Shown piece after piece: positions 25,082 to 27,898 of a stretch of 29,896 nt of DNA. The position numbers and the translations under genes are program-made. Origin of the DNA: a virus. Under the pieces are notes generated by a model that searched no databases, had not been told where the DNA came from, and worked only from the letters and a program-made list of their open reading frames with translations. The stretch is from positions 1 to 29,896 of the IMG/VR virus record IMGVR_UViG_3300037847_002973. One strand, 5' to 3'. How positions within the stretch are numbered: the stretch's first letter is position 1; each line of letters opens with the position of its first letter.

Positions 25082-27130
25082 TTAAAAACAGCTTGATGTG
25101 TTGAGGGAGCCAGCATTATCTATGTTTGGAATTTCGATCGTAACGGGGGGTTGATCGAACTCAGTTGGCGTCAAACTATTTAGTGGTATACTGGGAGGTG
25201 GAGTAGTACCAATTGGGGCAACTGTAACTTCAGGGACGACAACATTTAAAATAGTTCCAGGTGTTGTCGCAGGAATTGTTGCATTGTTTGACGGAATAGT
25301 AACAACTGGCAGTTGTAAATCTGCAGGAAGAAGATCTTCATTGGTAATACTACCAACACCTGTTACAGTATCAGTGATAGTGATGATAGTATTGTCTGGA
25401 ATATTACTACCTGTACCGATAATATTAACAGGACCAAAGCAAATACGACCAGTATTATAATCAACAGTTCCTGCCGCATTATTGGTATAGACTTTCTTAA
25501 TACCAGTGTTGTAGAACATTCTCAGGTTGCCAAATCCATCATCTTCAAATTGCTGGTTGATTCCAGGTCGATCGTAAGTTCTGAAAGTTCCAGATAAGAT
25601 AACAGGTTCTTTTTTACATTGATTGGCACTACCATCACTACCATCACCATCATTATTACTGGGATTACTATCGTATAAACCAGAACCAATGGAAACACAA
25701 TATGTGTTAGTTTGATTAGAAATAGGTGTAATGTATTTGAGAAGTGATGTCTGCACAGAAACGTCACTAACACATTTGTTTGCAAGTGCAATTGCTTTCT
25801 GATAACTATTCAATCTAAACGTAGAATTGAAGTTATTAATCTGAGTTTGTCCTGCCCAATCAACAATAGAATTTTGAATGTCGGTTTTAATTGCAGAGGA
25901 ATTAGATCCGCAACCAGTATCGTACTGAGCAAAGACTTTTGTATTGATGTATAGACTATCTGGATCAACTACAACAGGGTCGATAGACGCCATTGCATAT
26001 TTTCTTAAAAGATTCTGAACTTCTTTTTTAGTAGCAGCGTTAAGTTCAGAACCAGTTTTTGTTAGGATTGCAATATAGACTTTTCCGTAGATAGGAGGGT
26101 TTAAAATATCTCCACCATATGCAACAACTGCCTGAGCATTCTCATATAGTTTTTTTGTCAAGACAGCATAGTCTTGAGCAGTAACTGCTCTGTTTTGGGA
26201 AGAAAGATATCTAGGAGCATTATATTTAATAGATTCGATAGTTTCAGCAGCTTCACCTTGCTGAGAGTTATCAATAGTATCTAAAATTACTGTAGAAGCA
26301 CTATAGGTTGCTGAATTACTATCAGTTAGTCTACCAACAAAACTAAAGTTCTTGACCTGATTTGCTTCCGCTCCAGAAGTTACCAAATACTCAAGATCAA
26401 TAACCTCGCCGTCTTTTAATGCTCTACCGATACTATCATCACCAAATCTAATTTCATATCTCATGTCCTCACCTTCGTGCATAAAGTACACACGAGTAGT
26501 GGAAGTTACCGATGTAATATTATCAGTTATATTGTAAAGATCAGAGGCAGTAGATGATTCATTAGGTCTGACTCTGACAACTAAAGTAGATGTATCAACG
26601 TTTCCAGAAGGAATTGCATAAACCTGTTTTGCAAACGTATTAACAATGTAAGAATAATTTAAGATATTACCTTCATAGATAAGCATCTTATCAAAAACTG
26701 CTTGACCTGTTGTTAAATCAACATTTGTCGTTCTATCGCTTAAAATATTCCAAATATAATTACCACCAGTTGCAACAGGTCCTTTTTTCAAAGTTATTGA
26801 ACTAGGATAAACTCCATTAATTGCAGTAGTCTGTATGGTTAACTTAATACATGCTTTTGCCGCTGTAATAGAGTTAGGAGTATAATTCATCAACTTAGCA
26901 ATGTTGACGACGTTATCCCTAATTGTTGAAGATGGCAAAAATGCCTCATTCATTGCCATATTAGCATTGAACGAGGTGTAGTAAGTATTATATGCTAAAA
27001 GATCAATAATATAAGACAACGAAGAACCATCAAAATCATAATCCGTGAACTCTTCTCTAGTTCTCAGATAGGATTTGATAGAGGCTTTAATATCCTCAAA
27101 ATCTAAAGCAGTTAGGTTATTCGGTTGCAT
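25082..27130 (-). CDS. gp6: Baseplate wedge protein gp6
   Basis: 682 aa, close to T4 gp6 (660 aa). The N-terminus (LTALDFEDIKASIKSYLR, then YDFDGSSLSYIIDLLAYNTY and NMAMNEAFLPSS) is the family hallmark, shared with the gpJ-type baseplate proteins of other myophages. The central YLSSQNRAVTAQDYAVLTKK and VVAYGGD..PPIYGKVYIAI stretches fit the core that makes the inner baseplate ring. gp6 pairs with gp25 and gp7 to build each wedge; the order gp25-gp6-gp7 seen here matches that assembly. Its ATG overlaps the gp25 stop by one base (TAATG), indicating translational coupling. Oddities: an Asp/Asn/Gly/Ser-rich loop at about 487-501, bracketed by two cysteines, and a Pro/Thr-rich, low-complexity C-terminal tail of about 85 residues ending in SSCF. 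Confidence 0.93.
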   Translation of the reverse strand: MQPNNLTALDFEDIKASIKSYLRTREEFTDYDFDGSSLSYIIDLLAYNTYYTSFNANMAMNEAFLPSSTIRDNVVNIAKLMNYTPNSITAAKACIKLTIQTTAINGVYPSSITLKKGPVATGGNYIWNILSDRTTNVDLTTGQAVFDKMLIYEGNILNYSYIVNTFAKQVYAIPSGNVDTSTLVVRVRPNESSTASDLYNITDNITSVTSTTRVYFMHEGEDMRYEIRFGDDSIGRALKDGEVIDLEYLVTSGAEANQVKNFSFVGRLTDSNSATYSASTVILDTIDNSQQGEAAETIESIKYNAPRYLSSQNRAVTAQDYAVLTKKLYENAQAVVAYGGDILNPPIYGKVYIAILTKTGSELNAATKKEVQNLLRKYAMASIDPVVVDPDSLYINTKVFAQYDTGCGSNSSAIKTDIQNSIVDWAGQTQINNFNSTFRLNSYQKAIALANKCVSDVSVQTSLLKYITPISNQTNTYCVSIGSGLYDSNPSNNDGDGSDGSANQCKKEPVILSGTFRTYDRPGINQQFEDDGFGNLRMFYNTGIKKVYTNNAAGTVDYNTGRICFGPVNIIGTGSNIPDNTIITITDTVTGVGSITNEDLLPADLQLPVVTIPSNNATIPATTPGTILNVVVPEVTVAPIGTTPPPSIPLNSLTPTEFDQPPVTIEIPNIDNAGSLNTSSCF

Positions 27131-27549
27131 TATTCAGGTCTCTGTAAAACAAACTCGATTGTTTCAACAATGGGTAACCCAACAATTCGGTACTCAACAT
27201 AGACATTCAACTTATTACCTGCAAAAACAGGAGTTGCCTGAACATTTACGAGTTGCACCCTGGGTTCATACTGATTAATGGTATTTATGATCTCATCCCT
27301 AACTGTATCTGCGGTAAACGCATCTAGGGGTTCAAAAAGCAATTGTCTAACCCTAGAACCAATGTTAGGTTGAAAGGGTTTCTCTCCAGGAGCAGTTAAT
27401 ACTAAATTTTTAATCGATTGCTTGATAGCATTGTCGTTTTGCACAGCAGAAACATCTTTAGTAAATGGATTCAAGAGCAAATTGATCGATAAATCTTTAA
27501 AAGATCTCGATTTCTTAAATTCTCTACCAGTGACTTGTTTTAACGCCAT
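27130..27549 (-). CDS. gp25: Baseplate wedge protein gp25
   Basis: 139 aa (T4 gp25 is 132). It belongs to the gp25/GPW/TssE family, the most conserved component of contractile baseplates, where it locks the gp6 dimer and contacts the sheath end. Visible landmarks are FKDLSINLLLNPFTKDV (17-33), AIKQSIKNLVLTAPGEKPFQP (41-61), GSRVRQLLFEP (64-74) and the EPR triplet at 95-97 that defines the family core. It is intact with no insertions. The start at 27549 overlaps the end of the 51-aa ORF by ten bases, and the upstream TGAG at 27556-27553 can serve as a weak ribosome site. The gp6 gene overlaps its stop by one base, so the two are probably made in matched amounts. Confidence 0.95.
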   Translation of the reverse strand: MALKQVTGREFKKSRSFKDLSINLLLNPFTKDVSAVQNDNAIKQSIKNLVLTAPGEKPFQPNIGSRVRQLLFEPLDAFTADTVRDEIINTINQYEPRVQLVNVQATPVFAGNKLNVYVEYRIVGLPIVETIEFVLQRPE

Positions 27550-27695
27550 TTACTCAGTGGTTTATTTTTGCTGGTTTTATTTTTTTGGTGCAAATTGAGA
27601 TAATAATCGGATTTTGGATCAGTAATTAGTACATGAGTACCATGATCTTGCTTCATCATCTCAACATTATGATCTGGGACGTGATTTAACCCCAT
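27540..27695 (-). CDS. Small 51-aa protein of unknown function
   Basis: Read directly on the minus strand: ATG at 27695, TAA at 27542-27540, 51 residues beginning MGLNHVPDHNVEMMKQDHG and ending KPLSKWR. A strong ribosome site GGAGG (27705-27701) lies five bases before the start, better than any other in the window. The first half is acidic and His-rich (five His in 21 residues); the second half is Lys-rich with nine lysines after residue 27. There is no Cys, membrane span or recognised motif. It overlaps gp25 by ten bases. The start codon is buried in a predicted stem, which implies controlled translation. Its position between spike and wedge genes suggests an assembly or minor baseplate role; this is a guess. 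Confidence 0.75.
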   Translation of the reverse strand: MGLNHVPDHNVEMMKQDHGTHVLITDPKSDYYLNLHQKNKTSKNKPLSKWR

Positions 27696-27736
27696 AAAAT
27701 CCTCCAAACAAAGTTCGTAGAACTTTTTATGGGGTT
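27688..27736 (-). promoter_or_regulatory. RNA stem-loop sequestering the start codon of the 51-aa ORF
   Basis: On the minus strand AACCCCATAAAA (27736-27725) is perfectly complementary to TTTTATGGGGTT (27699-27688), and the second arm contains the ATG at 27695. Inside, AGTTC-TAC-GAACT (27724-27712) forms a second hairpin stacked on the first arm. The GGAGG ribosome site (27705-27701) is left unpaired in the joining strand. The arrangement would hide the start codon while leaving the Shine-Dalgarno exposed. The inner hairpin plus flanking T residues could alternatively be a weak attenuator or RNA processing site. Confidence 0.55.
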
Positions 27737-27748
27737 CTATCCCAATAA

Positions 27749-27756
27749 TATTTATC
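27749..27756 (-). promoter_or_regulatory. Possible late promoter GATAAATA
   Basis: The minus strand reads GATAAATA (27756-27749), seven of eight matches to the T4 late box TATAAATA. It overlaps the TAA stop (27754-27752) of the 48-aa ORF, just as the box at 3949-3956 overlaps the stop of the giant gene. By T4 spacing, transcription would begin near 27743, just upstream of the stem-loop, and would cover the 51-aa ORF, gp25 and gp6. The first base is off consensus, so it is a candidate only. Confidence 0.35.
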
Positions 27757-27898
27757 GACCTTGACCGCGATAACGCTTTTTAGCATTATTTCGACTGGTT
27801 GCAGCATATTTTGTATGCTGACCTCCACCTTGACGAGTCTTTTTCGGGGTGGTCTCGATCATATTGCCGCCAGAGAGCGACTTTTTCATTTTTGCCAT
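27752..27898 (-). CDS. Small basic 48-aa protein of unknown function
   Basis: Read directly on the minus strand: ATG at 27898, TAA at 27754-27752, 48 residues (MAKMKKSLSGGNMIETTPKK... and ending KKRYRGQGR). AGGAG (27912-27908) lies nine bases upstream, inside the end of the PAAR gene, and the ATG follows that gene's stop by 4 bp. It is strongly basic, with about 14 Lys/Arg and one acidic residue, and is rich in Gly, Ser and Asn, so it is probably largely unstructured. The tight spacing and ribosome site argue for a real gene. I recall similar short basic ORFs beside baseplate genes in marine T4-like phages but cannot confirm that here. RNA, DNA or negatively charged protein surfaces are plausible partners. 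Confidence 0.75.
   Translation of the reverse strand: MAKMKKSLSGGNMIETTPKKTRQGGGQHTKYAATSRNNAKKRYRGQGR

Follow-up and report, generated by a model that had tools for sequence, protein, structure and literature searches.

The window, by which we mean the entire stretch of 29,896 nucleotides of viral DNA analysed here, carries on its minus strand a run of genes for a baseplate wedge protein, a PAAR-type protein, a basic 48-aa ORF (phrog_516), a 51-aa ORF (phrog_1414), gene 25 and gene 6, in this order. The start region of the 51-aa ORF is 99.9–100% identical to that of the Synechococcus phages Syn30, S-E7 and S-P4, which are T4-like cyanophages of the Kyanoviridae. This ORF (27540..27695, minus strand) had been described in the original prediction as a hidden gene; it is in fact annotated in Syn30, as CPRG_00004 (YP_007877768.1), and its translation matches the PHROG 1414 profile over its full length (residues 1-51 of 51, E 3.6e-22). 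Its dN/dS ratios among relatives lie mostly at 0.1-0.3 and reach 0.6, and these mostly low values support its coding status. The ORF list and profile matches place the baseplate wedge gene 25 directly downstream (27130..27549, minus strand), with the 10-bp overlap between the two ORFs that had been claimed, followed in the same operon by the baseplate wedge gene 6 (25082..27130, minus strand). From the sequence, coupling of gp25 synthesis to the small ORF through this overlap appears plausible; many relatives have a gap of 20-50 nt between the small ORF and gene 25 and no overlap. The 48-aa basic ORF on the upstream side (27752-27898, minus strand) is unannotated in RefSeq NC_021072 and annotated in S-E7. 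We also observed that a 7041-aa ORF (3952-25077, minus strand) matches the giant virion structural protein family phrog_701 with both its first and its last 1500 residues.

Searches of Pfam and PDB with the small protein recovered no match, and AlphaFold2 modelled it as a helical peptide at low confidence (pLDDT 69). The homologous proteins of loci L066-L185 share a common N-terminus, to which interchangeable C-terminal modules of the form ..DRxSRPCGGxGGFDDFVERWHE or ..HEKIRNDEDYDDWEYGTEPxYG are attached. In S-TIM5 (L060) a relative of the small ORF lies away from gene 25, between nrdB and an HNH endonuclease gene in the neighborhood of ribonucleotide reductase, and the conserved RNA element described below was not found in that genome.

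The start codon of the small ORF (27695-27693) is located within a hairpin, whose left arm AACCCCATAAAA (27736-27725) and right arm TTTTATGGGGTT (27699-27688) are perfectly complementary over 12 bp on the minus strand. The ATG is contained in the right arm, and a second, inner hairpin (AAGTTC-TAC-GAACTT, 27711..27725, minus strand), recognized in the sequence and in the predicted fold, lies between the arms, just as originally proposed. This is the single perfect inverted repeat of at least 12 bp with a loop of at most 60 in the window, as against a mean of 0.07 in dinucleotide shuffles of the same DNA, and the start region folds better than 200/200 shuffled versions (z -4.2). The GGAGG Shine-Dalgarno (SD) sequence (27701..27705, minus strand), taken earlier for the strongest ribosome site, is present as stated; the window holds just one further GGAGG-ATG site, which serves a 16-codon ORF. 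The GGAGG is not left open by the hairpins, as had been supposed, but is mostly paired in the minimum-free-energy fold. The complete 12-bp arm running through the ATG is specific to the Syn30-like phages; their closest relatives retain AACCCC/GGGGTT alone, and in most lineages the SD would be blocked by a different hairpin instead. The window carries an unusual, AUG-burying version of a wider start-site design.

An alignment of the DNA upstream of the homologous ORF in named cyanophages revealed a strongly conserved block, AGGGAUAGnAACCCCUnnAAAAGUUCUG, placed just after a late promoter of the form NATAAATA. This block corresponds to an RNA element of about 30 nt with the pattern (P1)AU-RG-N-AAC(P1')nnnAAAAGUUCU, and the left arm of the start-site hairpin is made up of its P1 3' strand, its linker and a part of its tail. 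Both the element and the late promoter directly upstream of it had been missed in the original prediction. In the window the element occupies positions 27717..27746 of the minus strand, where it matches our covariance model R1 with 39.8 bits (E 1.7e-9). Its P1 helix, recognized by covariation, is formed by UGGG (27741..27744) and CCCA (27730..27733), and the loop that P1 encloses contains the invariant strand AGAAC (27734..27738), which is complementary to positions 27723-27719. The latter positions form the tail GUUCU (27719..27723), the proposed pseudoknot partner, which is overlapped by the inner hairpin, and an A-rich linker, L3 (UAAAAA, 27724..27729), precedes it. The start-site hairpin is one local form of a small structured RNA found ahead of the small gene and gene 25 in many T4-like cyanophages.

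We collected 228 distinct copies of the element, in which P1 is formed by the four bases before the AU and the four bases after the AAC. The second pair of this helix is GC in 120 copies, AT in 98, TA in 7 and CG in 3, with no mismatch, and the fourth is A-U, C-G, G-C, U-A or G-U in 214 of the 228. Among 65 cluster representatives, 97% of the P1 cells are paired, double changes are seen in 28 and 33 sequences at two of the pairs, and the covariation score for P1 is 0.258, compared to 0.080 for shuffled alignments and at most 0.119 when the structure is slid along the alignment. Some letters of P1 were fixed by the search patterns, namely those of the first pair plus, for one of the scans, the whole of GAG/CTC; when the copies from the GAG/CTC scan are removed and stricter clusters are used, the second pair still retains all four types, in 11-28 clusters. 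The P1 helix is thus supported by compensatory changes.

A second helix, P2, is predicted between the loop RGNAAC and the tail GUUCU, which are complementary over five pairs and almost invariant, the last pair alone being variable. Both strands of P2 are devoid of informative covariation, their invariance being due in part to the construction of the search patterns, and no variant with a changed loop or tail was encountered among the fetched loci. The case for P2 is instead one of complementarity and geometry, with an L1 of 2 nt and an A-rich L3 of 6-7 nt, which together predict a compact H-type pseudoknot.

The element holds a constrained position with respect to both the promoter and the start codon. 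The window's late promoter, GATAAATA (27749..27756, minus strand), matches the motif NATAAATA reported for cyanophages (PMC2984593) and lies 12 nt ahead of the left arm; the stop codon (TAA) of the preceding 48-aa ORF falls inside it. In 48 of 66 leader clusters the distance from the end of a late promoter to P1 is 3-9 nt, against 2.6 clusters expected from mononucleotide shuffles, and about a quarter of the lineages (18/66 clusters) have no recognizable late promoter directly upstream. In T4, late transcription begins some six bases past the TATAAATA-like box, and with the same spacing here P1 would form the very 5' end of the transcript. On the other side, the element lies about 26 nt before the AUG of the small-ORF family, next to gene 25, with most GUUC-to-ATG spacings in the range of 22-31 nt.

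Genomic searches showed that this arrangement is widespread in cyanophages. Named cyanophages carry the core ahead of the small ORF, and a degenerate core pattern recovered at least 120 stretches from IMG/VR, nearly all of which, among those listed, have it about 25 nt before the small ORF, followed by gene 25. Gene 25 lies within 1.5 kb of 216 of the 228 copies; nearly all of the exceptions are sequences that end too soon, chance matches or copies at another site, such as that between terminase and PhoH in S-CBWM1. When 74 loci were chosen by gene 25 only, 26 had both the element and the small ORF, 28 the small ORF alone, 20 neither and none the element alone. The element is therefore absent at 28 of the 54 gene-25-anchored loci with a small ORF, indicating that the small ORF can do without it. 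Complete genomes have one strong copy each, and a model search of the genomes of S-PM2, S-TIM4, Syn33, S-TIM5, S-RS29 and T4 found no strong copy. Scanning the bacterial and archaeal genomes of GTDB with the core pattern gave 20 scattered matches, near the chance level of about 15 estimated from base frequencies, which marks the element as phage-linked. Weak additional model matches in Syn9, S-IOM18 and S-RS29 (L394, L395, L396) trace to a single stretch of about 110 nt, 94% conserved, with a hairpin AGAGATAGTAACCTCT and without the AAAAGTTC tail.

We then compared the complementarity of the P1 3' side of each leader to its own start region with its complementarity to those of other leaders (ALT pairing). 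The own leader pairs at -7.99 kcal/mol, as opposed to -6.96 +/- 0.21 kcal/mol for permuted leaders, a value reached in 0 of 5000 permutations, or in 1 to 21 of 5000 under stricter clustering. In 21 of the 66 clusters ALT pairing is strong (-10 or better) and spans nucleotides of the P1 3' strand and the SD; in three of these, namely those of the window, L006 and L144, the AUG is covered in place of the SD. In the remaining 45 clusters a local hairpin (H2) starts from the UUCU of the tail, with -5.58 against -3.64 +/- 0.24 (0/5000 permutations), a signal that is lacking in the 21 clusters with strong ALT. For 37 of these 45 clusters, the P2 3' strand (UUCU) supplies the base of H2 and is paired either to the SD region or to the bases surrounding the AUG. 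At the level of sequence, complementarity in both designs is above the permutation controls, and the two have a theme in common, a hairpin over the ribosome site that draws on strands which the pseudoknot would also need. What recurs among relatives of the pairing originally described is the above-chance complementarity of the left-arm strand to the ribosome-binding site, and not the full 12-bp arm through the ATG. The SD is paired in the predicted folds of 44/47 leaders, against 13/17 for gene 25 leaders from loci of this kind; the latter being similar (p = 0.07), we dropped this excess as evidence.

These features lead us to lean towards a cis-acting translational switch, in which a 5' pseudoknot that leaves the start free would alternate with a hairpin blocking the ribosome-binding site, and the element probably controls when the small gene and gene 25 are translated. 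The region would constitute the structured 5' leader of a late operon comprising the small ORF (PHROG 1414), gene 25 and gene 6, with the late promoter placing the H-type pseudoknot (P1 UGGG/CCCA, P2 AGAAC/GUUCU) at the 5' end of the mRNA. Once formed, the pseudoknot would occupy the invading strands and leave the ribosome site free, a state that we take to be ON. If the pseudoknot were absent or disrupted, the P1 3' strand, the linker and the P2 3' strand could pair downstream into a hairpin over the SD or AUG, giving an OFF state that would exclude the former; in the window this hairpin would be the 12-bp stem through the ATG with its inner hairpin, and elsewhere an SD-pairing hairpin. The synthesis of gp25 may be affected as well. 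In the window the hairpin state has a predicted MFE of -24 compared to -3.8 for P1 alone, and P1 is predicted as the optimal fold when the first 30 nt are taken alone, to be outcompeted once the downstream strand is added. With the hairpin far more stable than P1, the switch would rest in the OFF state by default, and the ON state would require a helper or kinetic trapping. Candidates for shifting this balance are a phage or host protein, a small molecule and the kinetics of transcription.

The leading alternative, a less probable one, is a protein-binding translational operator, at which gp25, the small protein, gp32 or some other phage protein would bind the invariant AUAGNAAC loop and AAAAGUUC tail to repress or activate translation. 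An invariant loop and tail combined with a freely covarying stem are typical of a bound motif, linkage to one operon only with one copy per genome fits autogenous control, and T4 gene 32 indeed uses a leader pseudoknot (PMC3014915). The leader pseudoknot of gene 32 in T4, T2 and RB69 likewise lies upstream of the start region of a phage mRNA, but it is situated 67 nt from the AUG and is bound by gp32 along with an A+U-rich operator, whereas the present element differs both in position and in the gene it precedes, i.e. the small ORF with gene 25. Against an operator, the candidate small protein is the low-confidence helical peptide without Pfam or PDB match noted above, and the core itself does not explain the co-selected SD hairpins. 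The T4 gene 43 operator, AGCCU-AAUAACUC-GGGCU, also is a short hairpin with an NAAC-containing loop; it has a different register, no complementarity to a tail and a different gene, and upon comparison with the real T4 sequence we rejected it as a relative of the element.

The frequent placement of the late promoter 3-9 nt ahead of P1 would suit a stability element, a pseudoknot at the transcript start that shields late mRNA from 5'-end-dependent decay, with the downstream hairpins being secondary. We consider this unlikely: the promoter is not in that place in 18 of the 66 clusters, other late genes of the same genomes do not have the element, and an AUG at a fixed distance of 22-31 nt, together with hairpins overlapping the SD or AUG, points to initiation. 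Attenuation is an improbable account even for a subset of lineages. Here a long hairpin with a U-run (GGAGGUUUUUU) would act as an intrinsic terminator against read-through and the pseudoknot as an antiterminator, as the sequences of L084, L094, L141, L151, L156, L158, L287, L295 and L312 could suggest; yet the U-run doubles as the SD-AUG spacer, and no U-run follows the hairpin in the window and most lineages. The long leader hairpins of these nine loci end in GGAGG followed by the U-run, and look both SD-sequestering and terminator-like.

The original prediction invoked the mechanism of T4 gene e, in which early read-through RNA is kept silent by a hairpin that late RNA lacks. The structured and probably regulatory nature of the start site holds, but this mechanism for it is very improbable. 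The hairpin is real, and T4 e, soc and 49 do work in this manner, the late transcript of gene e starting downstream of the 5' arm and so escaping the hairpin (PMC3014915). The hairpins of e, soc, 49 and I-TevI resemble the present one in burying the RBS or AUG of a T4-type phage in an RNA helix; they have the late promoter within the 5' arm, however, whereas in the window it is located ahead of the left arm, and in relatives it precedes the whole element, so that the late transcript would keep the entire structure. Moreover, no NATAAATA is visible between the arms, and, unlike those hairpins, the element combines a covarying stem with an invariant core. That the inverted repeat arose by chance without function, for which the restriction of the complete 12-bp arm to Syn30-like phages might speak, is the least credible reading given the P1 covariation, the permutation tests and the geometry of promoter and AUG across 66 clusters.

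Among other known leader RNAs, the preQ1-I riboswitch offers a functional parallel to the proposed switch in being a compact H-type pseudoknot with an A-rich third loop that competes with access to the SD; here, by contrast, the P2-P1 loop is predicted to be 0 nt long, and the gene that follows has no relation to queuosine. The Rfam preQ1-I model had no match at its gathering threshold, and none of preQ1 type emerged up to E 10. The glnA (glutamine) and Downstream-peptide RNAs of marine cyanobacteria and their phages likewise are cyanobacteria-associated leaders of short ORFs, and their Rfam models matched neither the window nor its relatives. At T4 gene 25 too, RNA structure controls translation, in a split initiation region; there the structure separates the SD of gene 25 from its AUG and has an enhancing effect, whereas the present one precedes the small ORF before gene 25. 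Scans of the window and 26 relatives against Rfam 15 at gathering level produced no match, and at E 10 the start region drew in chance matches only. A search of freely accessible papers returned the T4 leader structures and the cyanophage RNA motifs manA, wcaG, PhotoRC-II, glnA and Downstream-peptide, and not the element, which apparently has not been described before.

We place the element among the structured leader RNAs of phages or bacteria, with a minority chance that it constitutes a new riboswitch class. Such a class, a very small pseudoknot (~30 nt) sensing a metabolite or protein, devoted to a virion-assembly operon and allowing T4-like cyanophages to adjust the timing of baseplate production to conditions in the infected cell, is a speculative possibility. 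According to a review, T4 had no characterized riboswitch, and its gene 32 pseudoknot may be the sole viral one to serve translational autoregulation (PMC3014915, 2010). Few marine viruses have been studied as much as the T4-like cyanophages, yet neither Rfam 15 nor the literature searched holds a record of this element, which, being short, in single copy and at a late promoter, is directly testable. If the switch were confirmed, RNA structure on late mRNA itself would be a means by which phages regulate assembly genes, and the retention of a small gene of unknown function ahead of gene 25 would be accounted for.
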